Part shown: positions 10,954 to 46,679 of the stretch, in pieces
How positions within the stretch are numbered: the first letter of the stretch is position 1
Layout of the letters: every line of letters begins with the position of its first letter
Assembly: GCA_037139415.1 (NCBI GenBank)
Contig: JBAXGN010000038.1
Coordinates: 1 to 46,679 of the forward strand
DNA: 46,679 bases
Direction: 5' to 3'
Origin: Verrucomicrobiota bacterium
GTDB lineage: Bacteria; Verrucomicrobiota; Verrucomicrobiia; Limisphaerales; Fontisphaeraceae
Notes under the pieces: generated by a model
Databases searched by the model: none
The model's input: the letters and a program-made list of their open reading frames with translations, nothing else
Told to the model about the DNA's origin: nothing
Translations under genes and position numbers: made by a program

Positions 10954-11037
10954 CATGGCAGAAAAATTTATTGGCATAAAAATTGGGAGCCGAATTTATA
11001 AAAATTTGATTAAATAGTTTTCAATTTTTTTGCCATG
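10954..11037. repeat. Palindromic element, type A, copy 1
   Basis: The left arm starts CATGGCAGAAAAATTTATTG and the right arm ends CAATTTTTTTGCCATG, with an A/T-rich centre. This copy lacks the second GCC box in the right arm that most others have. Its final ATG (11035-11037) is the start codon of the following gene. A 20-codon frame starting at its first ATG (MAEKFIGIKIGSRIY...) ends in the centre. Confidence 0.85.
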
Positions 11038-13074
11038 TTGGGTTCCTCATTTTTCTCAAATTGTTCTGAAAAATTCGGTGTCCGGCTCATTCTGGCCGCC
11101 CTCATCGTTTCAGTTTTCCTCCTCTATTCCCCGGTCTGGTACTTCGACTTCGTCAATTACGATGATCCGGATTATGTCACTCAAAACCCATGGGTTCAGG
11201 CCGGACTGACCGTCCGGAGTATCGCCTGGGCCTTCGGCAGCCTGCATGGTGAACAAACCTACTGGCATCCCCTCACCTGGCTCTCGCACATGCTCGATTG
11301 CCAACTCTTTGGTTTAAACGCAGGCGCGCATCACCTCGTTAATGTATTATTCCACGCCCTTAACGTCGGTCTGCTTTTCCTGGTGCTCAAGCGCCTCACC
11401 GGCGCGGTATGGCGCAGCGCCATCGTCGCCGCCCTCTTCGCCCTGCATCCCTTGCAGGTGGATACCGTCGCCTGGATCACGGAGCGCAAAAACCTGCTCA
11501 CCACCCTGTTCGGCTTGCTCACGCTCTGGGCCTATGCCAGCTACGTGGAAAAACCCTCGCTGAAACGTTACCTGCCCCTCCTCCTCTGGTTCGCCCTCTG
11601 CCTGATGTGCAAGCCCGCCCTGGCTCCCCTCCCCTGCGCGCTGTTGCTGCTGGACTACTGGCCACTAGGGCGCTGGGGGGGAAATTCCGCAATCCGCAAT
11701 CCGCAATCCGCATTCGATGGTTCCGCATTCAGTGGCTGCCTGGCCAGATTAATCCTGGAGAAAGTGCCCCTCTTGGCGCTGTCCGTAGGGATCAGTGTCA
11801 TGACGATGCTCGCGCATGAAACCGTCTGCCGACCCAATGCGGAAATGGCCCTGACCCCGCTGCTCCGCGCGGAAAACGCCTTCGTTTCCTATGCCGCGTA
11901 TGTGCGCAAGTTGTGCTGGCCATTTGACCTGGCCGCATTCTATCCGCACCCCGGTGCCTGGCCCATGAGCCTCGTTCTGGGCAGCAGCATCTTCCTGTTG
12001 GTACTCACGGGATTGGCCCTGTGGCTGCACAAGCAATTACCCAGCTTGGCCGTGGGTTGGTTCTGGTTCCTGGGCCTGTTGGTCCCCGCCATCGGCCTGA
12101 TTCAGGTTGGCGCGCAGGCGATGGCGGATCGCTTCGTGTACCTGCCTCTGGTGGGATTATTCATCGCCCTTACCTGGCTCATCGCCGACCTGCTCGCAAA
12201 GGTTCGCTGCCCAATCTGGGCGCGGGCCCTGCCCGCCGTTCTGGCCTGTCTTGCCTTTGGTTTTACCTCCGCTCGCCAGCTACACCATTGGCAGAACAGT
12301 ATTACGTTATGGGAACGCGTGATGGCTACCATCAAAAACAACGGTCATCGCCATAGTGACTGGATCGCCTATAGCGGATACGGCTGCGCGCTCATGGCCA
12401 ATGGCCAGTTTGAAGCGGCCAAAAGGCAACTGCAGATTGCCTTGGATATTTCTCCCGAATCGTTTTCCGTCCTCTATAACATGGGTTGCGTTTTGGAAAG
12501 CCAGGGGGACTTGTCTGGCGCTGCCGAATATTACAAAAAGGCCGTTGCCCAGCGTTCGGGCATTTCAAAAATGCATAAATCCCTGGTCAACCTTTATATG
12601 CGGACCGGACGGCTTGACGCCGCCATCGCCGCCAATCTTCAGGCCATCAAAAGCCTGCCTCCCGATGACCTGCTGCACCTGTTCCACGCCCAGTTGCTGA
12701 TGGCCACGCGCGATTACTCGGGGGCCATCTCCCACTACCAGGAAGCTCTCAAATTAAATCCCGACTCGACGCCCGCTCAAAACGACCTCGCCTGGTTGCT
12801 GGCCACCGCTCCCCAACCCAACCTCCGCAACGGTGCCGAGGCCGTCCGACTGGCCGAGGCCGCCGCCCAGGCAACGGGGTACCGGCAAATACTAATCGTG
12901 GGGACATTGGCCGCCGCGTATGCGGAAGCCGGGCAATTCCCAAAAGCGGTAGCCACCGCCGAAAAGGCGATCGCCATGGCCCAGGCCCAAGGGCAAACCG
13001 CCCTCGTGGAAACCAACCGTCGTCTGCTTCAAGAATATCGTCAAAATCGTCCGCATCGTCAGAGCCCGGAGTAA
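11035..13074 (+). CDS. Multi-spanning membrane TPR protein resembling TMTC/GT-C glycosyltransferases (paralogue 1)
   Basis: 679 residues: a membrane part with about 10 helices (residues about 15-430), then tetratricopeptide repeats (about 440-670). After the first helix comes FDFVNYDDPDYV, an acidic pair where GT-C mannosyltransferases and TMTC proteins have their catalytic Asp residues. WHPLTWLSHMLDCQLFGLNAGAHH and ALHPLQVDTVAWITERKNLL are further conserved loops. I infer a protein O-glycosyltransferase or other lipid-linked sugar transferase acting outside the membrane, possibly on the abundant secreted Ig-type proteins nearby. No direct proof is visible. The start codon is the last ATG of a palindromic repeat, and a heptamer array encodes part of a loop near residue 220. 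It is 70-90% similar in stretches to the gene at 18122. Confidence 0.85.
   Translation: MLGSSFFSNCSEKFGVRLILAALIVSVFLLYSPVWYFDFVNYDDPDYVTQNPWVQAGLTVRSIAWAFGSLHGEQTYWHPLTWLSHMLDCQLFGLNAGAHHLVNVLFHALNVGLLFLVLKRLTGAVWRSAIVAALFALHPLQVDTVAWITERKNLLTTLFGLLTLWAYASYVEKPSLKRYLPLLLWFALCLMCKPALAPLPCALLLLDYWPLGRWGGNSAIRNPQSAFDGSAFSGCLARLILEKVPLLALSVGISVMTMLAHETVCRPNAEMALTPLLRAENAFVSYAAYVRKLCWPFDLAAFYPHPGAWPMSLVLGSSIFLLVLTGLALWLHKQLPSLAVGWFWFLGLLVPAIGLIQVGAQAMADRFVYLPLVGLFIALTWLIADLLAKVRCPIWARALPAVLACLAFGFTSARQLHHWQNSITLWERVMATIKNNGHRHSDWIAYSGYGCALMANGQFEAAKRQLQIALDISPESFSVLYNMGCVLESQGDLSGAAEYYKKAVAQRSGISKMHKSLVNLYMRTGRLDAAIAANLQAIKSLPPDDLLHLFHAQLLMATRDYSGAISHYQEALKLNPDSTPAQNDLAWLLATAPQPNLRNGAEAVRLAEAAAQATGYRQILIVGTLAAAYAEAGQFPKAVATAEKAIAMAQAQGQTALVETNRRLLQEYRQNRPHRQSPE
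11687..11714. repeat. In-frame heptanucleotide repeat (CCGCAAT)3-CCGCATT
   Basis: Four 7-bp units inside the TMTC-like gene encode the loop SAIRNPQSAF between two membrane helices. The paralogue carries a much longer set at the same position (18774-18873). Confidence 0.85.
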
Positions 13075-13089
13075 AAATCCAGGACTGTT

Positions 13090-13199
13090 TGCAGAAAAAT
13101 GAACCGGCAGAAAAATTGGAAACCGAATTATAAAAAATGATCAATTGAAATTTGATTTTATAGTTTCCAATTTTTTTGCCAGATAATCTTTTTGCCATG
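13090..13199. repeat. Palindromic element, mixed type, copy 2
   Basis: The left arm is the type B form (GCAGAAAAATGAACCGGCAG) and the right arm is type A (TTTTTTTGCCAGATAATC and then TTTTTGCCATG). It follows the stop of the first TMTC-like gene by about 15 bases. The closing ATG continues TCGGGCTCCGCATTC with no gene behind it. It shows that the two arm types belong to one family. Confidence 0.8.
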
Positions 13200-13233
13200 T
13201 CGGGCTCCGCATTCAACGAAGAAAAGACCGGAC

Positions 13234-13349
13234 CATGGCAGAAAAATTTATTGGCATAAAAATTGGGAGCCGAATTTATAAAAAAATGATCAGTGAAAAA
13301 TTGATTTAATAGTTCTTAATTTTTTTTGCCAGATAATCTTTTTGCCATG
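13234..13349. repeat. Palindromic element, type A, copy 3
   Basis: The left arm is CATGGCAGAAAAATTTATTG and the right arm carries two boxes, TTTTTGCCAGATAATC and TTTTTGCCATG. It is preceded by AAGACCGGAC and followed by TCGGGCTCCTCATTC. A 24-codon frame starts at its first ATG. The gene-free stretch 13075-13648 is almost wholly made of this family. Confidence 0.88.
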
Positions 13350-13382
13350 TCGGGCTCCTCATTCATCGCGGAAGACCGGAAC

Positions 13383-13478
13383 CTGGCAGAAACATTTATT
13401 GGCAGAAATATTGGGAACCGAATTTACAAAAAATGATCAGTGAAAATTGATTTAATAGTTTCCAATTTTTTTGCCATG
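13383..13478. repeat. Palindromic element, type A, copy 4
   Basis: The left end is CTGGCAGAAACATTTATTGG (CTG in place of ATG) and the right arm is single-boxed, ending TTTTTTTGCCATG. It is preceded by GGAAGACCGGAAC and followed by TCGGGCTCCC, the same flanks as other copies. Confidence 0.88.
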
Positions 13479-13530: not shown

Positions 13531-13648
13531 CCGATATTTTGCTTCGATCACGCTTTACTTTCTTCCCCTAATCGCGTAGATTGTTATCCATGTTCAAAGT
13601 GGGATTAGAAGTGGACATGTTAACAACGTAATTCCCATGGCATACAAT

Positions 13649-16600
13649 ATGAAAAAATTGACTTTTACGGTGGGCCTGATGGCTCTCATGGCTGTTTCGG
13701 TGAAGGCGAATCCGGGGTATTTTCTTTTCTTGAATCTTAGCGGTGACAAAATATTCAATACCAATGAAATGGCCTCCGCGACGAACAATTCTTCGCTCAC
13801 CTCGAATGCCTACCCCAGTTTAAGAATCGCCATCTACTATAGCACCAACACCATTGCCACCAATTTAACGGATCGGCGCGCCCACGTCTGGCCCAACAAC
13901 ACCAACGGCGGCATCACGGGATATGCTTTATTCACAAATACCAGCGGTATTATTGGGTTCAATTCGAATCCCGCATTTAATGGCCGCTTCAGCGGTGGCA
14001 GCACTTCGAACACCGCCTATAAAGTAGAAATGGCGATCACAAATCAGTTTCAGGTACGTATCTGGGACAACACGTACGGAGCCACTTGGGAAGCGTTTAA
14101 ATCCAATATGGATGTCGGGAATGTGCCCGCTGGCATCTTGTACGGGTTATCCCCTCTGTTTTACCTACAGCCTTCAGATAGTGCTCAAACTCCTATTCCT
14201 AATCCACCATCTCCGATTGATGTAATGCCCTTCTGGAATCTGACCAATGTTGTTGTACTGTCCCCGGTCATTACCACCCAGCCACAAAGCCAAGTGCGCG
14301 TGCCGGGAACCACGGCCAGTTTCAGCGTGGCGGCTACCGGCACTGCGCCGCTCGGCTACCGCTGGCGGTTCAACAATACCAATCTCGTTTGGGCCACCAA
14401 CAGTACATTGACGCTGAACAATGTGCAAAGTGTTAACGCTGGCTACTACCAGGTGATCGTGAGCAACACCGCCGGGACGGTCACCAGTACCGTAGCCACC
14501 CTGACGGTGGTGTATCCCCCCGCCATCACCGGCCAACCACAAAGCCAGACCTGCGCCGCAGGCACCATGGCCAGCTTCAATGTGACCGCCACCGGTACGG
14601 CCCCGCTGGCGTATCAATGGTACAAATCAGTAATCAGTCAGCAGTCAGCAGTGATCAGTGGAGCCACAAATTCAGCCTTTAGCCTTCAACCTTTAGCCTT
14701 GGGAGACGCGGGGAGCTATTACTGTGTGGTCAGCAATGCGTATGGGGCCGCCACCAGCAGCGTGGCCAGCCTGACGTTGCTGGTGTACCCGCCGGTCATC
14801 ACTGGCCAACCGCAAAACCAGACGAACCGATTGGGAACCACGGCCCTATTCAACGTGACGGCCAGCAGCCTTATCCCTTTGTCCTACCAATGGATGCGGG
14901 TTGGCGCCTCATTCCCCATCGCCACCACCAGCCAACTCACCATCCCTATGGTCCAAGCCACGGACGCCGGAAGCTATTACTGTGTGGTGAGTACTGCGGA
15001 TGGACGGGTCGTGAGCAAACTGGCAACGCTCACCGTGCTCTCCCCGCCGGTCATCACCGTCCAGCCCCAAAGCCAATCTAACCCGCTGGGAGCGCCAGTA
15101 AGTTTCACGAGTGTCGCCGTCGGCACTTCACCGCTGGCCTACCAGTGGTACAAGGCAGTGACTAGTAATCAGTCACCAGTTATCAGTGGGGCCACGAATT
15201 CGGTCTATCGTCTCACGGCGGTCGCCGCCCTCGATGCTGGATCGTATTACTGCGTCGTGAGTAATGTTTACGGCATGGCGACCAGTGCCGTGGCCAGCCT
15301 GACGTTGCTCTACGCCCCAGCCATCCTCACCCAGCCTGACCACCAACTGGCCCCGTTGGGAGCGCCCGCCTATTTCAAGGTGACCGCCGCTGGCTTCGAG
15401 CCACTCGGCTATCAGTGGTACAAGGCAGTGACTAGTAGTAATCAGTCACCAGTGGTCAGTGGTCAGTGGTCAGTGGTCAGTGGTCAGTGGAGCCACGAAT
15501 TCAGCCTTCAGCCTTTAGCCTTGGGGGACGTGGGGAGCTACTACTGCGTGGTCAGCAATGCGTATGGGATGGCCACCAGTGCGGTCGCCACACTAACCTT
15601 GGCGTATTCCCCCGTCATCACTGGCCAACCGCAAAACCAAACGAACGTATTGGGAACCGCCGCCAGCTTCAGCGTAACCGGCGTCGGCACCGCCCCGTTG
15701 GCGTATCAGTGGTTTAGATCAGTAACCAGTCATCAGTCATCAGTCATCAGTGGGGCCACGAATTCAGCCTTTAGCCTTCAGCCTTTAGCCTTGGTTCACG
15801 CGGGGAGCTATTACTGCGTGGTCCGTAACGGTTACGGCATGGCCACCAGTGCGGTGGCCACCCTGACCGTGCTGTGCCCGCCGACCATTACCACCCAACC
15901 GCAAAGCCAGATGAACGTGCAGGGGACCACCGTCAGTTTCAACGTGACTGCCGCTGGCACGGCCCCGTTGGCGTACCAATGGTTTAGATCAGTAACCAGT
16001 AATCAGAATCAGTTATCAGTCACCAGTGGGGCCACGAATTCAGCCTTTAGCCTTCAGCCTTTAGCCTTGGGACACGCGGGGAACTATTACTGCGTGGTCA
16101 GTAATGCCTATGGCGTGGCGACCAGCCGGATGGCGACCCTGACGGTACTATCCGCGCCCATCATTACCACCCAACCGCAAAGCGTGACGAATGGGTTGGG
16201 GGCTGTTGCCAGGTTTAACGTGGTTGCCGACGGCACCGGGCCGTTGACGTACCAATGGTTTAGATCAGTTATCAGTGATCAGTTATCAGTAATCAGTGGG
16301 GCCACGAATTCGGCCTTTAGCCTTCCGCCTTTAGCCTTGGGGGACGCGGGGGATTACCAGGTGGTAGTTGCCAACAGTTTTGGCAGCGTGACCAGCCTCG
16401 TGGCCACCTTGACCGTAGTGGATAACCTGGGACCGCTCATCACGGTCAACGGCACCCTTGGACAGACTGTCAACCAACGGCTCTACTCCCTCAGCGGTGT
16501 CGTAACCGATGCCGGACGGGGAAACCATGGGGTACGAAACCTCTGGGTCAACGGCTTGGCAGTCACCAATGTGAGCGCCGTTGACGACGCCGTCGCACCT

Positions 16601-17848
16601 TGGAGCCAGGTCCTCACGTTACAGCCAGGGATGAACTATGGGTACGTCCTGGCCGCAGATGCCTTGGGCAATCGCAGTACCAACCTGTTCTATATCAACT
16701 TTGTACCGACGGATTCCGGCCTCCCCACCGTGATGATCAGCCAACCCGCCAGCCCAACCTATTCCAATTTGGTCATGGTCTCCGGCACAGCCTCGGATGC
16801 CAAAGGCGTGGTGGAAGTCTGGTGCCAGCAGAACGATGGTCCTTGGATGCTGGCCAGTGGCGCGAACAAATGGAGCATCCAACTGGTGCCCACGCTCGGC
16901 ACCAACACCCTGGCGGCCTACGCGGTGGATGCCTCGGGTAACTACTCGAAAACCAACCGCGTCAAATTTGTGAAACTGGCCACCGATACCTTGACTGTGA
17001 CTCGCGTTGGCAACGGCACCTTGTCCCCGGACCTAAACGGCAAGGTGCTGACGCTTGGCTCCCCCTATTCCATGAAGTCCTTGCCAGGGACTGGCTTCCT
17101 CTTCTCCAATTGGGTGGGGAATGGCTCGGTGTTGACGAACAATCCCAGCCTCCTCTTCACCATGCGCTCCAACCTGACCTTGACCGCGAACTTTGTGCCC
17201 AACGCCTTCCTGGCACGCAAAGGCGATTATGCGGGGCTGTTCTGTCCGAGTAACGACGTATTCCAAGCCGACTGGACCAATAGTGGTGCCGTAAAATTGA
17301 CTATGACGGACAAAGGGGCTTTTAGCGGCCAATTGACCTATCAAGGCAAAGTGTATCCGTTAGCTGGCGCGTTTGATGTCAGCGGCGTGGCCACCGCGAA
17401 TATCGCCCGGGGGAACGACCCGGCATTGCAGGTATGGCTGAACCTGGACCTGAACGCTGGCGGCGGCATGACTGGAACCATCAACCAAGGCACGAATTGG
17501 TCCTCGGCGTTGCGGGCAGGCTTGGTTTTAAAACAGGCCCAAGTGAAGACCAGTTACTCGGTGGCAGTAGTCCTTGATCCGACTGGTACCAATGTGGGCA
17601 CCCTGAATTTGAGCGTGCAACCCTCCGGCCTCGTCACCCTAACGGGCACCCTGGCCGACGGCACCAAATTGACCGGATCGCTGCCGCTGACCACCAAGCA
17701 CGAAGTGGTGCTGTACCAAACCTTATATGTCGGCAAGGGGCTATGGCTGGGCTACCTGAGTTTGGCAAACCCGAATCCAAACGGCACCGCCCATTGGCAA
17801 AAGCTCGAAAATGGCTTCTCCGTAAATGCCCGGCTGCTGTTGCCGTGA
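13649..17848 (+). CDS. Large secreted protein with eight Ig-like domains and C-terminal GDYxGLF domain
   Basis: 1399 residues from ATG 13649, which gives a clean signal peptide (MKKLTFTVGLMALMAVSVKA); an ATG four codons upstream is also possible. Residues about 22-175 are an unnamed domain (PGYFLF... TNTSGIIGFN... QVRIWDNTYGATWEAFK) shared with the genes at 22138 and 26990. Eight Ig-like domains follow (about 205-925), each with a YQW core and a DAGSYYCVVSNAYG-like end. Next come two Ig/cadherin-like modules and an InlB-type repeat (about 1115-1190, GFLFSNWVGNG). A C-terminal domain starting KGDYAGLF (about 1195-1399) is shared with the genes at 20348 and 41463. No membrane anchor is seen. 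Six Ig domains contain 7-bp repeats in frame. It is probably an exported adhesin or surface protein; the function is not known. Confidence 0.85.
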   Translation: MKKLTFTVGLMALMAVSVKANPGYFLFLNLSGDKIFNTNEMASATNNSSLTSNAYPSLRIAIYYSTNTIATNLTDRRAHVWPNNTNGGITGYALFTNTSGIIGFNSNPAFNGRFSGGSTSNTAYKVEMAITNQFQVRIWDNTYGATWEAFKSNMDVGNVPAGILYGLSPLFYLQPSDSAQTPIPNPPSPIDVMPFWNLTNVVVLSPVITTQPQSQVRVPGTTASFSVAATGTAPLGYRWRFNNTNLVWATNSTLTLNNVQSVNAGYYQVIVSNTAGTVTSTVATLTVVYPPAITGQPQSQTCAAGTMASFNVTATGTAPLAYQWYKSVISQQSAVISGATNSAFSLQPLALGDAGSYYCVVSNAYGAATSSVASLTLLVYPPVITGQPQNQTNRLGTTALFNVTASSLIPLSYQWMRVGASFPIATTSQLTIPMVQATDAGSYYCVVSTADGRVVSKLATLTVLSPPVITVQPQSQSNPLGAPVSFTSVAVGTSPLAYQWYKAVTSNQSPVISGATNSVYRLTAVAALDAGSYYCVVSNVYGMATSAVASLTLLYAPAILTQPDHQLAPLGAPAYFKVTAAGFEPLGYQWYKAVTSSNQSPVVSGQWSVVSGQWSHEFSLQPLALGDVGSYYCVVSNAYGMATSAVATLTLAYSPVITGQPQNQTNVLGTAASFSVTGVGTAPLAYQWFRSVTSHQSSVISGATNSAFSLQPLALVHAGSYYCVVRNGYGMATSAVATLTVLCPPTITTQPQSQMNVQGTTVSFNVTAAGTAPLAYQWFRSVTSNQNQLSVTSGATNSAFSLQPLALGHAGNYYCVVSNAYGVATSRMATLTVLSAPIITTQPQSVTNGLGAVARFNVVADGTGPLTYQWFRSVISDQLSVISGATNSAFSLPPLALGDAGDYQVVVANSFGSVTSLVATLTVVDNLGPLITVNGTLGQTVNQRLYSLSGVVTDAGRGNHGVRNLWVNGLAVTNVSAVDDAVAPWSQVLTLQPGMNYGYVLAADALGNRSTNLFYINFVPTDSGLPTVMISQPASPTYSNLVMVSGTASDAKGVVEVWCQQNDGPWMLASGANKWSIQLVPTLGTNTLAAYAVDASGNYSKTNRVKFVKLATDTLTVTRVGNGTLSPDLNGKVLTLGSPYSMKSLPGTGFLFSNWVGNGSVLTNNPSLLFTMRSNLTLTANFVPNAFLARKGDYAGLFCPSNDVFQADWTNSGAVKLTMTDKGAFSGQLTYQGKVYPLAGAFDVSGVATANIARGNDPALQVWLNLDLNAGGGMTGTINQGTNWSSALRAGLVLKQAQVKTSYSVAVVLDPTGTNVGTLNLSVQPSGLVTLTGTLADGTKLTGSLPLTTKHEVVLYQTLYVGKGLWLGYLSLANPNPNGTAHWQKLENGFSVNARLLLP
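15456..15490. repeat. In-frame heptanucleotide repeat (TCAGTGG)5
   Basis: Five perfect 7-bp units, with a partial unit before them, lie in the fifth Ig domain of the 13649 gene. They encode SGQWSVVSGQWS, which lengthens the loop compared with the other Ig domains. Slippage by one unit would shift the frame. Confidence 0.9.
16264..16298. repeat. In-frame heptanucleotide repeat (ATCAGTN)5
   Basis: Five units (ATCAGTT, ATCAGTG, ATCAGTT, ATCAGTA, ATCAGTG) in the eighth Ig domain encode SVISDQLSVISG. Similar arrays sit at the same place in other Ig domains here and in the 26990 gene, each followed by a GGCCAC stretch; in several domains of this gene a second, AGCCTTY-type run comes next. Confidence 0.9.
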
Positions 17849-17864
17849 ACGCAGAAGGCCGGAA

Positions 17865-17979
17865 CATGGCAAAAAAATTTGTTGGCAGAAATATTGGGAC
17901 CCGAATTTATAAAAAAATGATCAGTGAAAATTTGATTTAATGGTTTCCAATTTTTTTGCCAGCTAATATTTTTGCCATG
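17865..17979. repeat. Palindromic element, type A, copy 5
   Basis: Begins 17 bases after the stop of the Ig-domain gene. The left end is CATGGCAAAAAAATTTGTTG; the right arm is double-boxed and ends TTTTTGCCATG, followed by TCGGCTCC. It contains a 24-codon frame (MAKKFVGRNIGTRIYKKM...). Confidence 0.88.
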
Positions 17980-18012
17980 TCGGCTCCGTATTGGAACGCA
18001 AAAAGACCGGAG

Positions 18013-18124
18013 CATGGCAGAAACATTTATCGGCAGAAATATTGAGAACCGAATTTACAAAAAATGATCGTGAAAATTGATTTAATAGTTTCCAATTTTT
18101 TTGCCAGATAATATTTTTGCCATG
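18013..18124. repeat. Palindromic element, type A, copy 6
   Basis: Preceded by AAAGACCGGAG. The left end is CATGGCAGAAACATTTATCG and the right arm is double-boxed. The closing ATG (18122-18124) is the start codon of the second TMTC-like gene. Confidence 0.88.
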
Positions 18125-20206
18125 TTGGGCTCCTCATTTTCCTCCAATTTTTCTGAAAAATTCGGTATCCGGCTCATTCTGGCCGCCCTCATCGTTTCAG
18201 TTTTCCTCCTCTATTCCCCGGTCATTTACTTCGACTTCATCAATTATGACGACCCAGCCTATGTAACCCAGAACACCTGGGTCCAAGCCGGGCTGACCCC
18301 CAAGGGAGTGGCCTGGGCCTTCGGCAACCTGCACGGGGAACAAACCTACTGGCATCCCATCACTTGGCTCTCGCACATGCTGGATTGCCAGCTCTTCGGC
18401 TTGAACGCGGGTTGGCATCACCTCGTCAATGTCCTGTTCCACGCCCTTAACGCCGGGTTGCTTTTCCTGGTGCTCAAACGCCTCACCGGCGCTGTATGGC
18501 GCAGCGCCATCGTCGCCGCCCTCTTCGCCTTGCATCCCTTGCAGGTGGATACCGTCGCCTGGATCACCGAGCGTAAAAACCTGCTCACCACCCTATTCGG
18601 CTTGCTCACGCTCTGGGCCTATGCCAGCTATGTGGAAAAGCCCTCCCTGAAACGCTACCTGCCCCTCCTCCTCTGGTTCGCCCTCTGCCTGATGTGCAAG
18701 CCTGCCCTGGCTCCCCTGCCCTGCGCGCTGTTGCTGCTGGACTACTGGCCACTCAAGCGCTGGGGGGGAAATTCCGAATTCCGAATTCCGAATTCCGCAT
18801 TCGATGGTTTCGCACTCCGCACTCCGCACTCCGAATTCAGTGATTCCGCAATCCGCAATCCGCAATCCGCATTCCCTGAGTTCCGTCTCCTTACCTCGAC
18901 GGCTACAAAATTAGTCCTGGAGAAAGTGCCGCTCTTGGTGCTCTCCTTGGCAATCAGTATGGTGATCATCGTGGGACACCGAAACCTGGGCAGTTCCATT
19001 GCCCTGCCTCTCACACTGCGCTTGGAAAACGCGGTGGTTTCCTATGCCAGCTACCTGGGAAAACTATTTTGTCCGATCAATCTGGCCGTATTTTACCCTT
19101 ATCCCGACCAAATTGCCATCACCGCCGTGCTGTTCAGCATCTTGCTCTTGTTGCTCATTACTGGGATGGTGGTATGGCAATTCAAGCAGTCACCTTATCT
19201 GGCCGTGGGTTGGTTCTGGTTCCTCGGATTACTGGTGCCGGCCATCGGGGTGGTTCAGGCGGGCATGCAGGCCATGGCCGACCGTTTTGCGTATGTCCCC
19301 CTCATCGGAGTAGCCATCGGGATCGTCTGGGGGGGGGGCGGGTGGATTACCGCCCACCGCTGGCCTCTCTGGGGCCGCCTCACCCTTGGGATCGTCCCCA
19401 TTCTGGCCTGCACGGCCCTTGCCTCCCGGCAACTGGGGTATTGGAAAAACAGCCTAACCCTATGGGAACACACCTTTATGGTTACCCGTAAAAACTGGGT
19501 GTCGCATACCAATTATGGTCACGCACTACACCATATGGGCCAACTTGCTGCGGCCAAACAACAGTTCCTGGAAGCTTCGCGAATCCTGCCTGAAGATTAT
19601 GAATCACTGAACAACTTTGGCATGATTTCGGAAACCATGGGCGAACTGGATTCGGCGGTAGATTATTATCGTAAATCCTTACAGGCTCAATCCAACGCCA
19701 AAACTCAAAAAAGACTCAGCCGCGTTCTATTTCGATTGGGCCGGGTTCCAGAGGCCATCGAGTCAAATCGCACCGCGTTGCAAATGCTGCCGCGCGATGT
19801 TACGCTGCACCACGTACAAGCCCAACTCCTGGGGATGACGCATGATTATGGCGGGGCATTACCGCACTATCGCGCGGCGCTGGAGAACAACCCAACGAAT
19901 CCGCCCGTGTTAAGTGATCTCGCCTGGTTTTTAGCCACCTGCCCGCAAACCGATTTGCGTAATGGCACTGAAGCAGTCCGACTGGCGGAAAAAGCGGTCA
20001 CGCTGACGGGCTTCAAGCAGACGGTAATCGTGGGAACCCTGGCCGCCGCGTATGCGGAAGCCGGGCAGTTCTCGAACGCAGTGGCCACCGCCGAAAAAGC
20101 CATCGCCCTGGCCCGCACCCGAGGAGAAACTACATTAGCCGAAACAAATCAATTACTACTCCAAACCTACCGCCAAAATCAAGCGTATCACCAGAACCCG
20201 GAATAA
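18122..20206 (+). CDS. Multi-spanning membrane TPR protein resembling TMTC/GT-C glycosyltransferases (paralogue 2)
   Basis: 694 residues from ATG 18122. A TTG seven codons upstream would only add repeat sequence. The same plan as the gene at 11035: about 10 helices, a YFDFINYDDPAYV motif after the first helix, WHPITWLSHMLDCQLFGLNAGWHH, then TPRs from about residue 455. The first 200 residues are nearly identical to the paralogue, while the later helices and the TPR middle differ, and the last 70 residues are again close. That mosaic suggests gene duplication followed by partial conversion. The start codon is supplied by a palindromic repeat, as in paralogue 1. A 100-bp run of heptamers adds about 30 residues to one loop. 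The likely role is extracytoplasmic glycosyl transfer, by family resemblance only. Confidence 0.85.
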   Translation: MLGSSFSSNFSEKFGIRLILAALIVSVFLLYSPVIYFDFINYDDPAYVTQNTWVQAGLTPKGVAWAFGNLHGEQTYWHPITWLSHMLDCQLFGLNAGWHHLVNVLFHALNAGLLFLVLKRLTGAVWRSAIVAALFALHPLQVDTVAWITERKNLLTTLFGLLTLWAYASYVEKPSLKRYLPLLLWFALCLMCKPALAPLPCALLLLDYWPLKRWGGNSEFRIPNSAFDGFALRTPHSEFSDSAIRNPQSAFPEFRLLTSTATKLVLEKVPLLVLSLAISMVIIVGHRNLGSSIALPLTLRLENAVVSYASYLGKLFCPINLAVFYPYPDQIAITAVLFSILLLLLITGMVVWQFKQSPYLAVGWFWFLGLLVPAIGVVQAGMQAMADRFAYVPLIGVAIGIVWGGGGWITAHRWPLWGRLTLGIVPILACTALASRQLGYWKNSLTLWEHTFMVTRKNWVSHTNYGHALHHMGQLAAAKQQFLEASRILPEDYESLNNFGMISETMGELDSAVDYYRKSLQAQSNAKTQKRLSRVLFRLGRVPEAIESNRTALQMLPRDVTLHHVQAQLLGMTHDYGGALPHYRAALENNPTNPPVLSDLAWFLATCPQTDLRNGTEAVRLAEKAVTLTGFKQTVIVGTLAAAYAEAGQFSNAVATAEKAIALARTRGETTLAETNQLLLQTYRQNQAYHQNPE
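18774..18873. repeat. In-frame heptanucleotide repeats, three different units
   Basis: (CCGAATT)3-CCGCATT at 18774-18801, (CGCACTC)3-CGAATTC at 18811-18838, and (CCGCAAT)3-CCGCATT at 18846-18873. All are in frame and encode a loop of the type NSEFRIPNSAF. The paralogue at 11035 has only one four-unit block here. Confidence 0.88.
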
Positions 20207-24798: not shown

Positions 24799-24820
24799 GT
24801 TTTGAATTCATAAAATGGTT

Positions 24821-25085
24821 GGGAATTTTGCAGAAAGATGAGCCGGCAGAAATATAATTTAATTTAAATTTTTCGGAAGCTCGTTCCCAATGGCCGGGAT
24901 GTTTCTTATCGTGGTTGAATTGCACAACTTTCGATGGGAATTTTGCAGAAAGATGAACTGGCAGAAATATAATTTTATTTGAATTTCGCGGAAACTCGTT
25001 TCCAATGGCCGGGATGTTTCTCATCGTGGTTGAATTGCCCAGCTTTCGACGGGGATTTTGCAGAAAAATGAACCGGCAGAAATAT
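24821..25085. repeat. Tandem 115-bp repeat, two full units and the start of a third
   Basis: Units start at 24821, 24936 and 25051, each opening with GGGAATTTTGCAG or GGGGATTTTGCAG and a type B box. The rest of each unit (TCGTTCCCAATGGCCGGGAT, GTGGTTGAATTGC) is shared by the first two. This fills the gap 24758-25111 and keeps an open minus-strand frame running into the dehydrogenase gene. Apart from the repeats nothing is seen in this gap. Confidence 0.9.
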
Positions 25086-25111
25086 AGAGGACACATTCAC
25101 AAAATGATTTA

Positions 25112-26694: not shown

Positions 26695-26989
26695 CTTCCA
26701 TCACTTATGGCAAAGCATATTTGTTCTTCATTTTTCTGCAAAATCAGGCTGGTTCATTGCCCTGCAGTAATAACCCTGCATTCACAAAACCCAACCGTCT
26801 TCCACCACTTCTGGCAAAAATTATCTATTCTTTATTTTTCTGCCGGTTCATTTTTCTGCAAAATCCGGCTGTTCATTGCCCTGCGATGATTGCCCTACCT
26901 TCAAGAAAGCCGAGCATCTTCCATCACTCGCGGCAAAACATATCTGTTTTTCATTTTTCTGCCGGTTCATTTTTCTGCAAAATCAGGGC
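26695..26989. repeat. Tandem repeat of about 104-119 bp with inverted type B boxes
   Basis: Units start with CTTCCAYCACT at 26695, 26799 and 26918. Each carries CATTTTTCTGCAAAATC; units 2 and 3 also have TTTCTGCCGGTTCATTTTTC, which unit 1 lacks, explaining its 15-bp shorter length. The third unit is cut short at the stop of the giant Ig-domain gene. This accounts for most of the gene-free stretch 26584-26989. Confidence 0.88.
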
Positions 26990-29900
26990 TTATTCCACCG
27001 GGACGACGCGGTAGAAGCGCAGGGTGCGGGCGGCTTTGTCATCTTGGATGGTCAGGACGTTTTCGGTCGCCACCAGCGGTTCACCCGCCGCCTGCCAGTC
27101 CTGATTCAAGCCGTCCTTGCACTGAACCTGATAGGTCTTGCCCGGCTCGACCGCGAAGGAGAAGCTGACCAGATTTTCCTGGTCCAGACCGGCCGCGAGC
27201 GCAGCCGCAGCAGGTCCGGTCGGCTTGGCGGCTACCAGCGGACCAGCCAGCTTGGGCGCCAGACGCACCATCATTACCTGCGGAACGATAACCGTCACCT
27301 GGGCCACCTGGCTGGTTACGACCCCCACCATGTTGCTGATGACTACCGAGTACCCCGCACTGCGATTGGGGGTCACCGCCGCCAGCGTCAACGTGGGCAA
27401 CACCTGGCCACGGATCGGTATCCCGTTGGACAACCATTGGTATTTCAACGTTGCGGTACCGGTCGCCAACACCTTCAAGACCACCGTCTTTTTCTGAACC
27501 ACGTTCGTGCTCAGCGGCTGACTGGTAATCACCGGCGGGTTCTGAACAAAAATATTGGCCGCCAGCAGGCGGAAGGAACCCACCCGATTGGTTACCCCAA
27601 CATAATACGCGCCGCTATTGGCCAGTTGCGCATTGGTCAACGTAAGCGTGGAATCGGTCGCCCCCGGCACTTTCACGGTCGACTTAAACCATTGGTAGGT
27701 CATCGCAGGCGACCCAGTTACCGTCACACTCACATTGGCGGTGGTACCCACCGGCACATAGAGGTTCTGCAGTTTGGATACGAGCACGGGCTTGAACTCG
27801 ATGGTCAGGTTGGCCACCGCGCTGGTGACAATGCCATAGGCATTACTCAGCACCACGGAATAGGCCGCCGCCTTGTTGACATTGTTCGCCGTGACACTCA
27901 AGAGGGAACTGATCTGCCCCTTGATCGGAACGCTGTTCGAGAGCCACTGATACTTGATCGGTAGTTTGCTGGTAGCCGTCACACTGAACGGGGCCAACGC
28001 ACCAAAGGCGACCACTTTGTTGGTCGGCTGTTTGCTAATGGTTGGCCCGCCCACAAAGGAAAGGAAACCGACCGCACTGGTGGCCGAGCCGTACGCATTG
28101 GTCACCACCGCATAGTAACCACCCCGGGCAGACACGGTGTTCGTCAACTTGGTCAACGTCAACACGTCGCTGGTGGCCCCTGGAACCAACAACCCGTCAT
28201 GGTACCATTGGAACGACAGCGGTGTGCCACCGGCGGCACCCACCACCAAGTTGGAGGTCCCACCACCCACCGGCACAATCACATTGGTCGGGTTAACCGT
28301 GATCACTGGCGGTTGCTGCACCGTCAGCAACACCACCGAACTGGTGGCGGCGCCTTGCGCATTGGTGACCACCACAGAATAATAACCCCCATCGGTCGGC
28401 AGCACATTGGTCAGGGACAGGTGGACATCCAATGCCCCGGCGATCCGCAGGGTATTATGGAACCATTGATAGAACAGGGGTGCCGCACCACTGGCGGTAA
28501 CATCAAAGCCAGCCAAACCGCCCACGCGTGCGGTGGCGGCGACTGGCTGCGCGGTGATCGCAGGTGGCAACAACACCGTCAACGTGGCGACCGAGCTGGT
28601 TGCGGCGCCGTACGCATTCGTCACCACCACCAGGTAATTCCCGGCATCTGTCGCTTGGCTGTTGGCAATGGTGTATTGGCTGTTCGTGGCCCCACTGATC
28701 ACTGATAACGGATTACTGTTCACTGATCTAAACCATTGATAGTGGAACGGAGCGGTGGCGGACACCCCCACCGTCAGGGTGAAATTACCATGCAACCCCA
28801 CCGATTGACTGGCGGGACTGAGCGTAATCGAAGGCGGCAACAAGATCGTCAGCGTGGCCACCGAACTCGTGGCCGAGCCATAAGGATTGCTCACGACCAC
28901 CAGGTAATCGCCAGCATCCCCTGCTTGGCTGTTAGCAATGCTGAATTGGCTGTTCGTGGCCCCACTGATGACTGATAACTGATAACTAGTCACTGCCTTG
29001 TACCACTGATACGCAAAAGGCGCGGTACCCGAGGCAGCCACAGTGAAACTGCCGTTTCCGCCCAACACGACCGCCTGGTTGGTCGGATTCAGCGCGATCC
29101 CCGGCGGTAACAACACCGTCAACGTGGCGACGGAACTGGTGGCCGCACCATACAGATTGGTCACCACCAACTGATAATCCCCGGCATCCAACGCAGCTGC
29201 CGTCGGCAGGCTGTAGGCTGAATTGGTGGCCCCACTGATAACGGATAACGGATTACTGATCACTGACTTATACCACTGATAGGCAAACGGAGCCGTACCC
29301 GAAACCGCCGCGACGAAGCTGACATTGCCACCCAAAACCGCCGATTGATTGGTCGGGTTTAACGTAATGGTGGGCGGCAGGAGCACAGTCAGGGTGGCGA
29401 CCGCACTGGTGGCGGAACCGTACAGATTGGTCACCACGACAACATAATTCCCGGCGTCCCCCGCTTGGCTGTTGGTAATGGCGTATTGGCTGTTCGTGGC
29501 CCCACTGATAACGGATAACTGATTACCAATCACTGATCTAAACCATTGATACGCCAACGGAGCCGTGCCGGACGCGGCAGAAGCCAAACTGGTGGCCCCC
29601 CCCTGCACCACCGACTGGTTGGTGGGATTAAGCGTGATGGCGGGCGGCAACAACACGGTCAGCACGGCCACCGAACTCGTGGCCGAGCCATAAGGATTCG
29701 ACGCCACCGCCAAGTAACCGTCTGCATCCGCCGCCTGCAGATTGGTCAATTGTAATGTGAGATTGGTCGCAGCCAGAATGGGCGTGACACCCTTGTACCA
29801 TTGGTAAGTGAGCGGAGCCGTGCCTGAACCATCCACGGTGAAACTGACCGAGCCACCCACCAAAATCGCCTGGTCAACTGGATGGAGGGTGATGCCCGGC

Positions 29901-32608
29901 TTGAACAACAAACTGAATGCCGCCACGGCGCTGGTCACCGAACCCGAGGCGTTGGTCACCACGACCTGATAGCTGCCAACCTGGGCGGCAGACACATTCG
30001 TCAACCACAACGTGGCATTGGTTTCATTACCCAACAGATTCGTACCATTAAAGACCCATTGATACGACAGCGTCGCCGCCCCCAGAGCGGTAACCGTGAA
30101 AGACGCACTGCCGCCGACAAGCGCGTTGGTATCCTTCGGTTGTGCGGTAATACCGGGGGCATCGAACACCTGAAGCTTGGCGACGAGACTGGTGGCGGAA
30201 CCGTACAGATTGGTCACCACGACAACATAATCCCCAGCATCCCCCGCTTGGCTGTTGGTAATGCTGTATTGGCTGTTCGTAGCCTCACTGATAACTGATA
30301 ACTGATTACTGATAACTGATTTGTACCATTGATAAGCAAACGGCGGTTCGCCCAGCACACCCACCGTAAATGAAGCACTCCCAGCCAGGGACACGGAAGT
30401 ATCGGTTGGTTGCGCCGAAATCGCCGGCGTCTGCAACACGGTCAGCACGGCCACCGCACTGGTCGCCGATCCGTAAGCATTGGCCACCACGGCATAATAA
30501 CTGCCTTCACCGACTTTTTGCACGTTCGTCAGGGTCAGCGCCGCATTGGTGGCCCCCGTCAGCAAGGAACCAAGGCCATACCACTGATAGGTGAACGGCG
30601 TGGTACCAGTCGCGGTCACAGCGAATTGGGCCGTACCCCCAACATACACGGTTTGATTGGTGGGGCTCGAGGCGATGAGGGGCGACTCCAGGATGGTCAA
30701 TACCGCCACCGCACTGGTTACCGAACCGTACGCATTGGCGACCACCACCTGATAGTTACCGGCATCCGCCGCTTGGCTGTTGGCAATCGTGTATTGGCTG
30801 TTCGTGGCCCCACTGATTACGGATAACTGATTACTGATAGCTGATCTAAACCATTGATACGTGAAAGGCACCGGACCCGACGCAACGATCACGAATGCGG
30901 CGGTGTTCCCAGCCAGCACACTTTGGTTGGTCAGGTTGACAGTAATGGTCGGCGGCAGGAGCACGGTCAGGGTGGCTACCGCACTGGTGACAGAACTGTA
31001 CAGATTGGTCACCACCACAAAATAATTCCCGGCGTCCCCCGCTTGGCTGTTGGTAATGGCGTATTGGCTGTTCGTGGCCCCACTGATAACTGATAACTGA
31101 TTACTGATAACTGATCTAAACCATTGATAGTTCGGCGCCGTGCCCGTGGTGGCCACGCTGAAATGAACCGTCCCACCCACGACCACCGATTGGCCGATGG
31201 GATTCAGCGTAATCGTCAGCGGTTGCACCAATGTCAACGCTGCCACCGTGCTGGTCACCGCGCCGTATTGGTTGGTGATTACCACATAGTAACTGGCAGA
31301 AGCCTGCACATTGGTCACGGTTAAGCTCGCATTGACCGCGCCAGCCAGAACCGTGCTGTTCACAAACCATTGGTACGACAGCGCCGTCCCCATGGCATTG
31401 ACCGTAAACGAGGCCATACTGCCGGCCAACGCGGACTGGTCCGCCGGGTTGGCCACAATGGCTGGCGCCAGGTTGGCGGCCAACAGCGCCACCGCACTGG
31501 TAGCGCTGCCATACGCATTGGTGACGATGACCTGGTAACTACCGGCCTGCGTCACCTGGACATTGGTCAGAATCAAGGTGCCATTCGTCATGCCCGCCAG
31601 CACGTTCGTCCCGTTAAAATACCATTGATACGACAGCGGCGCGGTACCCGCTACGGAAACCGCAAACGTGGCGGTGTCACCCGTCGCCACAGCCTGGTTG
31701 GTAGGGGATGCGGTGATCATCGCCGGCACCAGCACAGTAAGCGTCGCAACATCACTGGTGGCTGAACCGTAAATATTGCCCACCACCACTTGATAGTTGC
31801 CAGCGGCAGCAGTCTGGATATTCGTTAAGGCAAGGGACGCATTGGTGGCCCCCGCAATCACATTGGTGGCATTAAAGTACCACGCATAGACAAACGCATT
31901 GGTGCTATAAACCGATACCGTAAACGTCGCATTGGAGCCCAACAAATTGGTGATGCTCTGCGGTTGCGTGGTGATGGCGGGAGCGGGGGGGCTTGGCGGA
32001 CTGTAGGCGGTCAAGTTCCAGTAAGGCATTCCTCCAGAACCCAAAGTTGGAGGAATAATTGCAGGAACTTTTAACACGTCTGGCGGTAGAAAACTAAATA
32101 ACGGCGATAACCCATATAATGTGCCAACTGGTACGTTTCCGGCATCCATGTTGGTTTTGAACGCTTCCCAAGTAGCCCCGTACGTGCTGTTCCATACCCG
32201 CACTTGAAAATGATTGGTGACCGCCGCCTCCACCTTGTAAGCCGTATTCGACGCATTCCCAGCAGTAAAGCGACCATCGAATAATGAATTAAACCCAATA
32301 ATGCCACTGGTATTCGTGTACAGTGCGGTCCCGGTGATGCCACTACTGGCGTTGTCGGGCCAAGTATAAGCACGCCGATCCGTTAGATTGGTGGCGATAG
32401 CATTGGTGCTGTAGTAGATGGCCAATCTTAAACTGCCATAAGTCGCATTGGATTTGATTGTAGATGTACCCGTGAGAGATGCGACTTCGTTTACATTGAA
32501 TATCTTATTTGTTCCCACAGAATTTTGGAAAAGAAAATACCCTGGATCAGCCACCACTGAAACCGCCATGCAGGCCATGAGACCCAGAGCTAAAGTCAAT
32601 TTTTTCAT
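26990..32608 (-). CDS. Giant secreted protein with eighteen Ig-like domains
   Basis: 1872 residues from ATG 32608 (MKKLTLALGLMACMAVSVVA signal peptide); a TTG two codons upstream is not needed. Residues about 20-175 are the GYFxF domain shared with the genes at 13649 and 22138. I count eighteen Ig-like domains (about 205-1775), each with a YQW-type core and an AYGSATSAVATLTVL-like end, joined by short PP linkers. A final 95-residue part (FSFAVEPGKTYQVQCKDGLN...) looks like a small beta domain and closes at FYRVVPVE. Seven Ig domains (4, 5, 7, 10-13) carry ATCAGTN heptamers in frame. No anchor is visible. It is probably an exported fibrous surface or matrix protein. The near-identical domains make recombination between them likely. 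Confidence 0.85.
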   Translation of the reverse strand: MKKLTLALGLMACMAVSVVADPGYFLFQNSVGTNKIFNVNEVASLTGTSTIKSNATYGSLRLAIYYSTNAIATNLTDRRAYTWPDNASSGITGTALYTNTSGIIGFNSLFDGRFTAGNASNTAYKVEAAVTNHFQVRVWNSTYGATWEAFKTNMDAGNVPVGTLYGLSPLFSFLPPDVLKVPAIIPPTLGSGGMPYWNLTAYSPPSPPAPAITTQPQSITNLLGSNATFTVSVYSTNAFVYAWYFNATNVIAGATNASLALTNIQTAAAGNYQVVVGNIYGSATSDVATLTVLVPAMITASPTNQAVATGDTATFAVSVAGTAPLSYQWYFNGTNVLAGMTNGTLILTNVQVTQAGSYQVIVTNAYGSATSAVALLAANLAPAIVANPADQSALAGSMASFTVNAMGTALSYQWFVNSTVLAGAVNASLTVTNVQASASYYVVITNQYGAVTSTVAALTLVQPLTITLNPIGQSVVVGGTVHFSVATTGTAPNYQWFRSVISNQLSVISGATNSQYAITNSQAGDAGNYFVVVTNLYSSVTSAVATLTVLLPPTITVNLTNQSVLAGNTAAFVIVASGPVPFTYQWFRSAISNQLSVISGATNSQYTIANSQAADAGNYQVVVANAYGSVTSAVAVLTILESPLIASSPTNQTVYVGGTAQFAVTATGTTPFTYQWYGLGSLLTGATNAALTLTNVQKVGEGSYYAVVANAYGSATSAVAVLTVLQTPAISAQPTDTSVSLAGSASFTVGVLGEPPFAYQWYKSVISNQLSVISEATNSQYSITNSQAGDAGDYVVVVTNLYGSATSLVAKLQVFDAPGITAQPKDTNALVGGSASFTVTALGAATLSYQWVFNGTNLLGNETNATLWLTNVSAAQVGSYQVVVTNASGSVTSAVAAFSLLFKPGITLHPVDQAILVGGSVSFTVDGSGTAPLTYQWYKGVTPILAATNLTLQLTNLQAADADGYLAVASNPYGSATSSVAVLTVLLPPAITLNPTNQSVVQGGATSLASAASGTAPLAYQWFRSVIGNQLSVISGATNSQYAITNSQAGDAGNYVVVVTNLYGSATSAVATLTVLLPPTITLNPTNQSAVLGGNVSFVAAVSGTAPFAYQWYKSVISNPLSVISGATNSAYSLPTAAALDAGDYQLVVTNLYGAATSSVATLTVLLPPGIALNPTNQAVVLGGNGSFTVAASGTAPFAYQWYKAVTSYQLSVISGATNSQFSIANSQAGDAGDYLVVVSNPYGSATSSVATLTILLPPSITLSPASQSVGLHGNFTLTVGVSATAPFHYQWFRSVNSNPLSVISGATNSQYTIANSQATDAGNYLVVVTNAYGAATSSVATLTVLLPPAITAQPVAATARVGGLAGFDVTASGAAPLFYQWFHNTLRIAGALDVHLSLTNVLPTDGGYYSVVVTNAQGAATSSVVLLTVQQPPVITVNPTNVIVPVGGGTSNLVVGAAGGTPLSFQWYHDGLLVPGATSDVLTLTKLTNTVSARGGYYAVVTNAYGSATSAVGFLSFVGGPTISKQPTNKVVAFGALAPFSVTATSKLPIKYQWLSNSVPIKGQISSLLSVTANNVNKAAAYSVVLSNAYGIVTSAVANLTIEFKPVLVSKLQNLYVPVGTTANVSVTVTGSPAMTYQWFKSTVKVPGATDSTLTLTNAQLANSGAYYVGVTNRVGSFRLLAANIFVQNPPVITSQPLSTNVVQKKTVVLKVLATGTATLKYQWLSNGIPIRGQVLPTLTLAAVTPNRSAGYSVVISNMVGVVTSQVAQVTVIVPQVMMVRLAPKLAGPLVAAKPTGPAAAALAAGLDQENLVSFSFAVEPGKTYQVQCKDGLNQDWQAAGEPLVATENVLTIQDDKAARTLRFYRVVPVE

Positions 32609-32762
32609 ATTCAATTAAATCGCCGCCGGTTAAAAACCATCAAGCGTCCCCTGTCACGTTTCGTCTTTTTTAACGCGTCCACGCGCCATCCCGCCAACAG
32701 GAGCCCGCCCACTTCAAAATATAATCTGTGAGGACGCTACCAAACCCAACCCGCCCCACGCA

Positions 32763-41425: not shown

Positions 41426-41462
41426 GGTTTAGTTTGCGACAACAAACGAACTTATTTTGCTT

Positions 41463-46421: not shown

Positions 46422-46449
46422 ATCAGTCATCAGTTATCAGTCATCAGTT
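46422..46449. repeat. Intergenic heptanucleotide repeat (ATCAGTY)4
   Basis: ATCAGTC, ATCAGTT, ATCAGTC, ATCAGTT: the same 7-bp unit that lies in frame within Ig domains 20-30 kb away, here outside a likely gene. The remaining end of the window (46450-46679) shows no gene. Confidence 0.85.
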
Positions 46450-46679
46450 ATTCCAAATTTCAGAGGAGTTATGGGACGAATGGGAGCGATGGGGTGAGTA
46501 GAAAACCAAGCATTGCAAATTGAAAATTGTAAAATGCAAATTTGGGGACCATACAAAATCGCCAATCGTTGATCGCCGATAGCCAAGGGAATTTGGACCG
46601 CCAAACACGCAGACCACGCGAAAGGGGAAAAGACCGGGAAATGATTCAGCGCCGACTGACGTGCGGCGGCTACGCGGGT

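Follow-up and report, generated by a model that had tools for sequence, protein, structure and literature searches.

Tandem arrays of the 7-bp unit ATCAGTN sit in frame at one site of many Ig domains of this genome (a 7.9-Mb draft in 378 contigs), i.e., in the DNA for the C-C' hairpin, and strand E, the next strand after the hairpin, is often written in a second heptamer that differs between proteins. The best reading of this arrangement, to which we give a probability of roughly 0.6, is that dispersed heptamer blocks were captured into the Ig genes and spread there by domain duplication or conversion. The genome carries many dispersed 7-bp tandem-repeat blocks; by this reading, copies of them would have taken the place of the original hairpin and strand-E sequence in some of the Ig domains, and the captured blocks would then have spread with Ig-domain duplication and gene conversion. 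A copying agent, the direction of the copying, conversion as the route of spread and any benefit to the cell are what we infer on top of what the data show directly, namely the period at the DNA level, the abrupt edges of the blocks and one block of 28 nt that recurs in non-Ig DNA.

The window, i.e., the whole 46,679-nucleotide stretch of DNA that was analysed (contig C38), encodes two large proteins that are strings of Ig_3/I-set domains, Pfam matching Ig_3 in 8 stretches of the first and 16 of the second:

13637..17848, plus strand: multi-Ig protein 1, 1403 aa, 8 Ig domains (ORF, translation, Pfam)
26990..32614, minus strand: multi-Ig protein 2, 1874 aa, 18 profile-found Ig domains (ORF, translation, Pfam)

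Both N termini look signal-like by eye, and the proteins are probably exported. The window also holds a third multi-Ig protein (41457-45848, 1463 aa, four Ig_3 stretches), which is without ATCAGTN arrays.

The original prediction had placed ATCAGTN units in six domains of protein 1 and seven of protein 2, and the same domains were recovered with our own profile: at least three ATCAGT-like units are present in 6 of the 8 and 7 of the 18 Ig domains, respectively, always in the DNA directly 3' of the YQW core, and Tandem Repeats Finder reports 7-bp arrays where they had been predicted. The AGCCTTY runs said to follow in several domains of protein 1 are likewise there, as a second array after ATCAGTN in five of the six array domains, the exception being the domain near residue 471. 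The ATCAGTN unit described as intergenic, at 46422, is there as well. The arrays are as follows:

14626..14659, plus strand: ATCAGTN array in the C-C' hairpin of protein 1 domain 2
14674..14700, plus strand: AGCCTTY array in strand E of protein 1 domain 2
15156..15187, plus strand: ATCAGTN array in protein 1 domain 4
15450..15490, plus strand: expanded array with unit CAGTGGT in protein 1 domain 5, four units more than in domain 4
15503..15522, plus strand: AGCCTTY array of three units in protein 1 domain 5, frame-restoring
15718..15751, plus strand: ATCAGTN array in protein 1 domain 6
15766..15792, plus strand: AGCCTTY array in strand E of protein 1 domain 6
15988..16027, plus strand: irregular ATCAGTN array in protein 1 domain 7
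16042..16068, plus strand: AGCCTTY array in strand E of protein 1 domain 7
16264..16297, plus strand: ATCAGTN array in protein 1 domain 8
16309..16338, plus strand: AGCCTTY-type array in strand E of protein 1 domain 8
31082..31115, minus strand: ATCAGTN array of five exact units in protein 2
30812..30845, minus strand: ATCAGTN array of five units (three exact) in protein 2
30287..30320, minus strand: ATCAGTN array of five exact units in protein 2
29503..29537, minus strand: degenerate ATCAGTN array in protein 2
29234..29267, minus strand: ATCAGTN array of five units (two exact) in protein 2
28963..28995, minus strand: ATCAGTN array in protein 2
28693..28728, minus strand: ATCAGTN array of five units (three exact) in protein 2
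46422..46451, plus strand: ATCAGTN array in a dispersed element, within no stop-free frame of at least 300 nt
46512..46542, plus strand: ATTGNAA heptamer block

Across the window, runs of at least 11 matches are seen 9 times at lag 7 and 14 times at lag 14, mostly in the same arrays, and 0 to 3 times at each of the remaining lags between 4 and 25.

The prediction that arrays lie in frame at one loop of many Ig domains extends to the rest of the genome. Among 245 Ig domains from 40 genome pieces including the window, found with a profile built from the window domains, 25 domains in nine ORFs carry at least three ATCAGT-like units, each after the YQW core; the ORFs outside the window lie on contigs C42, C79, C135, C7, C20, C30 and C180. 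When we scanned for windows of 14 with at least 12 matches, 19 own domains passed at lag 7, 18 at lag 14, one at lag 9 and none at the remaining lags from 4 to 15. By comparison, none of 240 Ig domains of other genomes, a non-random sample drawn from loci similar to one array domain, reached this criterion at lag 7, and 2, 2, 1 and 3 of them reached it at lags 4, 6, 9 and 12. Relatives of the array domain are widespread (94 of the 97 genomes searched), and those relatives of one window Ig domain that have names belong almost entirely to Verrucomicrobia, several to subdivision 3, and not to cyanobacteria. A DNA pattern for the array end together with GATN, TCAGTNATCAGTGGNGCNACNAAY, matched 22 times in the own genome at no more than one mismatch, whereas the 319 other genomes of the order gave no match, in a search that arrays ending otherwise would escape. 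On the strength of this pattern search and the lag-7 criterion, we dropped the reading that other genomes of the order share the arrays.

The 7-bp period is a property of the DNA. We compared each segment with shuffles that redrew each codon from its synonyms, weighted by codon usage in the Ig ORFs; anchors could be parsed in 416 of the 485 profile-found domains (220 of 245 own, 196 of 240 from other genomes). In the own domains, 18 of 220 loops and 12 of 220 strand-E segments exceeded z = 3 at lag 7, as against 0 of 220 in each of the segments before and after; at lag 14, 11 loops and 12 strand-E segments did so, and at further lags 0-2. For the 18 loops and 12 strand-E segments that passed, this rejects the idea that the peptide forces the period. 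In the relatives, of which the test kept 191-196 domains, the lag-7 passes were 1 of 191 loops, 1 of 196 strand-E segments, 1 of 195 segments before and 0 of 196 after, and segments after the DAG motif passed at lags 6, 9, 12 and 15 in 4-5 cases, indicating that the synonymous null is imperfect.

Codon choice within the arrays follows the repeat. In 25 cassettes picked by peptide, Ser at the two repeat positions is AGT in 45 of 45 cases (a codon with a 20% share of Ser usage), while 20 of 22 Gln codons are CAG and 32 of 34 Ile codons are ATC. The Val codons that hold the free base vary (1.2 and 1.9 bits), the Gly, Ala and Thr codons that adjoin the array vary at their third positions (1.3-1.6 bits), and the remaining array codons show 0-0.8 bits; this tally covers 22 of the 25 array domains (it leaves out domain 5, which is without the anchor motif, one unparsed domain and one near-duplicate) and has the C30 row in the wrong register. 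Codon counts and domain pairs are not independent, because the domains are related. That the third positions of the adjoining Gly-Ala-Thr vary, yet the array codons hardly do, counts against plain inheritance, by which the arrays were gained once in an ancestral Ig domain and passed on by domain duplication, their DNA looking conserved since this was recent or since the peptide is selected.

Since 7 and 3 are coprime, each of the three frames of an array yields one and the same cyclic heptapeptide (SVISNQL type). Its sense strand is open in 32 of the 64 free-base combinations and its antisense strand in none of 64, so that one orientation is tolerated inside genes, and the Ig arrays of the window, C42, C79 and C135 are all same-sense. 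The unit number could thereby shift by three, or otherwise if a second array compensates, with the protein preserved. In an AlphaFold2 model of one array domain (alignment of 16 window domains, mean pLDDT 87.7), array residues fall at the end of the strand 37-44 and in the strand 47-51, the strand 59-62 comes next, and the hairpin is the least confident part of the model (block means, 69 and 71); the array residues are thus predicted to form an extended C-C' hairpin followed by strand E. The assignment to Ig_3/I-set (PF13927, PF07679) rests on Pfam matches above the curated cut-off and on the predicted fold, which matches solved Ig domains: Foldseek retrieved eukaryotic Ig domains and phage capsid proteins with a best E of 3.0e-07. 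These families describe the fold of the host domains and themselves call for no repeat DNA.

In a sample of the genome, heptamers are also in excess over other unit lengths, in line with the original prediction. In 40 stretches of the own genome chosen without regard to arrays (799,652 bases), we counted 16 arrays at lag 7 and no more than 5 at every other lag from 3 to 30, and a second-order Markov copy of this sample gave 0 at lag 7. A 400,000-base sample of a genome of the same family (G002) gave 3 arrays at lag 7 and 4 at lag 9, and heptamers are not clearly in excess there. The units vary by place (ATCAGTN, ATTGNAA, AATCCGC, AAATCTG, AATTCCG, AAAAAGT and others) and are often repeated just a few times. 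Three ATCAGTN units in a row gave 38 + 38 matches in the own genome, ATCAGTT units among them, as against 0 + 0 for a reversed control, and were found in 8 of 58 genomes searched, the own genome counted. Perfect-core arrays number 25 in the own genome (rows merged by hand), 9 of them inside Ig loops, and the 47 Ig ORFs total 242,946 nt of the 7.9 Mb, a set beyond which more may exist, as 150 of 301 candidates were scored. Within arrays all four bases occur at N; between neighbour units of noncoding arrays (n=24), a comparison whose selection favoured variation at N, this position differs in 49 of 132 cases, the second base in 29 of 132 and the others in 3-14.

Long ATCAGTN arrays were seen at L009:7182-7348, L013:3-50, L016:6008-6062 and L019:6345-6455, the last three at contig ends, where the assembly probably breaks in them. 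Other heptamers lie in long stop-free frames that look unlike Ig domains (L028:14304-14329, which reads SAIRNPQSAI, L057:16928-16961 and L035:18547-18566), so the Ig case may belong to a wider tolerance.

The period reaches beyond the loop into strand E, in other heptamers. At least five different ones exceed z = 3 there, the clear ones being AGCCTTY, ATCCTTA, GGATTGC, CAAATCT and CAATTTN, with others weaker; point mutation of one ancestor would not give this set, a further point against plain inheritance. One of these blocks ties the Ig genes to DNA elsewhere. A 21-mer with one order of the free base, ATTGCAAATTGAAAATTGTAA, occurs at 12 places, three of them Ig strands E (C42 once, C135 twice) and nine elsewhere; on the strand opposite to the Ig coding strand it reads ATTGCAA-ATTGAAA-ATTGTAA. 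The block at 46512..46542 contains the same 21-mer, which on the other strand encodes strand E of Ig domains on C42 and C135. None of the eight non-Ig copies inspected, out of nine, lies in a stop-free frame over 181 codons, and their flanks are of several types by eye. The shared order of the free base argues for copying rather than separate growth. One such E-strand block gives the longest exact match, 28 nt, of any Ig segment to DNA outside the Ig genes.

Exact matches of at least 18 nt to non-Ig DNA are concentrated in heptameric segments: they were found for 10 of 18 heptameric loops against 1 of 202 other loops, and for 5 of 12 heptameric E segments against 3 of 208 others, with 1 of 220 segments before and 0 of 220 after, in a library that is enriched in arrays, its loci having been picked in part for holding them. 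Copying cannot be proved from ATCAGTN, which is too simple a sequence, in the way it can from the ATTGNAA block. The two heptamers lie on the same strand near 46422 and on C162, whereas they lie on opposite strands in the Ig genes of C42 and C135, and these differing relative strands rule out the arrival of array and strand-E heptamer as one compound. In a domain without ATCAGTN (L193, residue 1961, contig C242), strand E consists of heptamers that resemble one another, TCATCCT TCATAAT TTATAAT TCATCCT.

Comparisons between domains point to replacement by blocks. For pairs with a flank identity of 0.68-0.78, strand-E identity is 0.64 when neither is heptameric (212 pairs) and 0.62 when both are (9 pairs), as against 0.32 when one is (66 pairs); with other limits the values are 0.76 (103 pairs), 0.87 (6 pairs) and 0.31 (17 pairs). 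The edges of the blocks are abrupt: in the matched domains of C42, C135 and C79, identity is mostly good up to YQW and again from DAG, and the middle piece is swapped, one aligned pair also being poorly alike before YQW. Such matching flanks around a differing block speak against in-place slippage, by which a chance ATCAGTG seed (Ile-Ser-Gly) would have expanded with the frame kept and strand E likewise from other seeds, nothing being copied. So do the E block that is identical, free bases included, to non-Ig copies, and the array loops, which exceed the common type of 23 residues by 5 residues (15 nt), not by a multiple of 7.

Whole-unit changes are what slippage would explain. Domain 5, as assembled, carries four units more than domain 4, and its AGCCTTY array has three units where those of domains 2 and 6-8 have four; the extra units shift the reading frame, such that the intervening sequence encodes WSHEF in place of GATNS, and the shorter AGCCTTY array brings the original frame back. 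This is the one clear unit change, domain 7 being irregular. Five other copies of the 46422 element were aligned with it and differ in the heptamer part, those on C7, C233 and C114 being gapped by 14 and 21 bases within a run of AAAAAGT/AAGGCTA, and copies also differ by the swap of the ATCAGT block for another sequence. The array moreover ends in the codons of the conserved ISGATN. With the evidence on both sides in view, we consider slippage in place an unlikely source of the arrays.

The history of the domains gives a mixed picture. On a tree of the domain cores, poorly resolved at 59 columns for 220 rows, the array state needs 17 changes, 3 of them forced by supported branches, as against a mean of 23.1 after shuffling, and none of 500 shuffles reached 17 or fewer. 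That 17 changes are needed, 3 of them forced, speaks for capture; the clustering beyond chance counts against it and is what plain inheritance would give, as is the near-constant length of the arrays. For 8 of 24 array domains, on the other hand, the nearest core neighbour is without an array, and together with the codons and the strand-E heptamers this leaves plain inheritance improbable, in our judgement. A pattern like that of ATCAGTN would also arise if a long-loop ancestor had been shuffled among domains, and long loops without a clear array (contigs C125 and C186, one in C135) allow an older, non-repeat origin of the 28-residue loop.

The arrays seem mostly fixed in length, which suggests that they serve as parts of the structure and not as a switch. 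Counted from W to DAG, 22 of the 25 array domains have an effective loop length of 28 aa, and the others 30, 36 and 36 aa (three rows give 31 because their count starts from a W further upstream, and the length of one row without parsed anchors was taken by hand), and neither of two close paralogous pairs (C42/C135 and C7/C20) shows a unit change, unlike the differences between close copies of phase-variable SSR contingency loci. The original prediction had described a variable loop of secreted Ig domains; the signal-like N termini agree with secretion, whereas a loop that is variable in length, let alone hypervariable, is not supported. This constancy, and the location of the arrays far inside the genes, tell against a contingency locus in which the arrays would switch or diversify a surface Ig protein, as in phase or antigenic variation. 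The probable export of the protein, a unit that is not a multiple of three, the turnover of heptamers in non-Ig copies and the long non-Ig arrays that end at contig ends (C90, C137, C216) would fit such a locus, which we nevertheless hold to be very unlikely.

Tandem heptanucleotides of Calothrix go by the name STRR. Calothrix, in which such repeats have been described (PMC4692102), is a cyanobacterium, so the likeness is one of tandem 7-mers in a bacterial genome, in another phylum. Passages of the same source describe heptamers of GGGNATC type in Xanthomonas and Nostoc, whose length varies between related strains and which resemble the present ones in being genome-wide, with degenerate positions and most often four units; those are G-rich quadruplex formers with a noncoding bias and are given no role as protein structure in these passages (PMC4692102). 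An excess of heptamers in bacteria was remarked on in 2007, and in the discussion of that source the cause is still only a hypothesis (PMC4692102).

In-frame heptamer repeats are already known, and the nearest repeat in the literature searched is TAACTGA. It equals ACTGATN with N=A, i.e., the reverse complement of ATCAGTN with N=T, and when SVISNQL and four similar peptides were searched in the literature, three of the five occurred, all in PMC4679880. According to that report (MacGregor 2015, PMC4679880), TAACTGA direct repeats occur in Beggiatoaceae, Thiocystis, cyanobacteria and Bacteroidetes, in some of the latter two mixed with other heptamers; reverse-orientation copies lie inside 11 ORFs and read LSVISYQ, forward-orientation copies only overlap gene ends, and MacGregor remarked on this single orientation inside genes. 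The Ig arrays lie inside ORFs in this same LSVISYQ orientation. In the Guaymas genome, heptamers related to TAACTGA are rarely repeated and copies in ORFs are mostly near protein ends (PMC4679880), whereas here all four N bases occur within arrays, 25 Ig domains carry copies at the same internal site, and the host, whose named Ig-domain relatives are nearly all Verrucomicrobia, is not among the reported groups.

Most TAACTGA copies lie just upstream of start codons, and a post-transcriptional regulator has been proposed for them (MacGregor 2015, PMC4679880), which would favour a view of ATCAGTN/TAACTGA as an RNA or DNA binding site that is in the genes by chance. The motif is in the opposite orientation in the Ig mRNAs and recurs at one structural position in ORFs, and we find this view barely credible. 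Among the top-ranked matches of the literature searched, there was no precedent for heptamer arrays inside Ig domains; what is new here, relative to that literature, is where they lie, namely in Ig domains and there recurrently in the same hairpin and strand.

The Ig arrays are a clear and unusual case of simple repeat DNA made part of a folded domain, repeatedly at one site, with related domains that have it and others that do not. With identical blocks inside and outside genes and with differences by whole units and whole blocks, the genome offers a good system for the question of how blocks move. A further, speculative step, which we think rather unlikely to be correct, is that the heptamer blocks outside Ig genes are a reservoir of frame-tolerant modules, copied into the C-C' and E positions and swapped at constant length for blocks of other sequence; if so, repeats would serve exported Ig proteins as a means, blind to codons, of varying one of their faces.

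The surroundings of the two Ig genes hold repeats of other lengths. The first gene lies between two like-built proteins with PMT_2 and TPR matches (11035-13074 and 18101-20206) and has a 148-bp tandem repeat on both sides (13091-13476 and 17847-18133), with 47 matches in the genome, most of which cover just 30-50 bp from a single part of the repeat. Two more tandem repeats, with units of 115 and 119 bp, lie at 24820-25086 and 26727-26987, the latter adjoining the second Ig gene.
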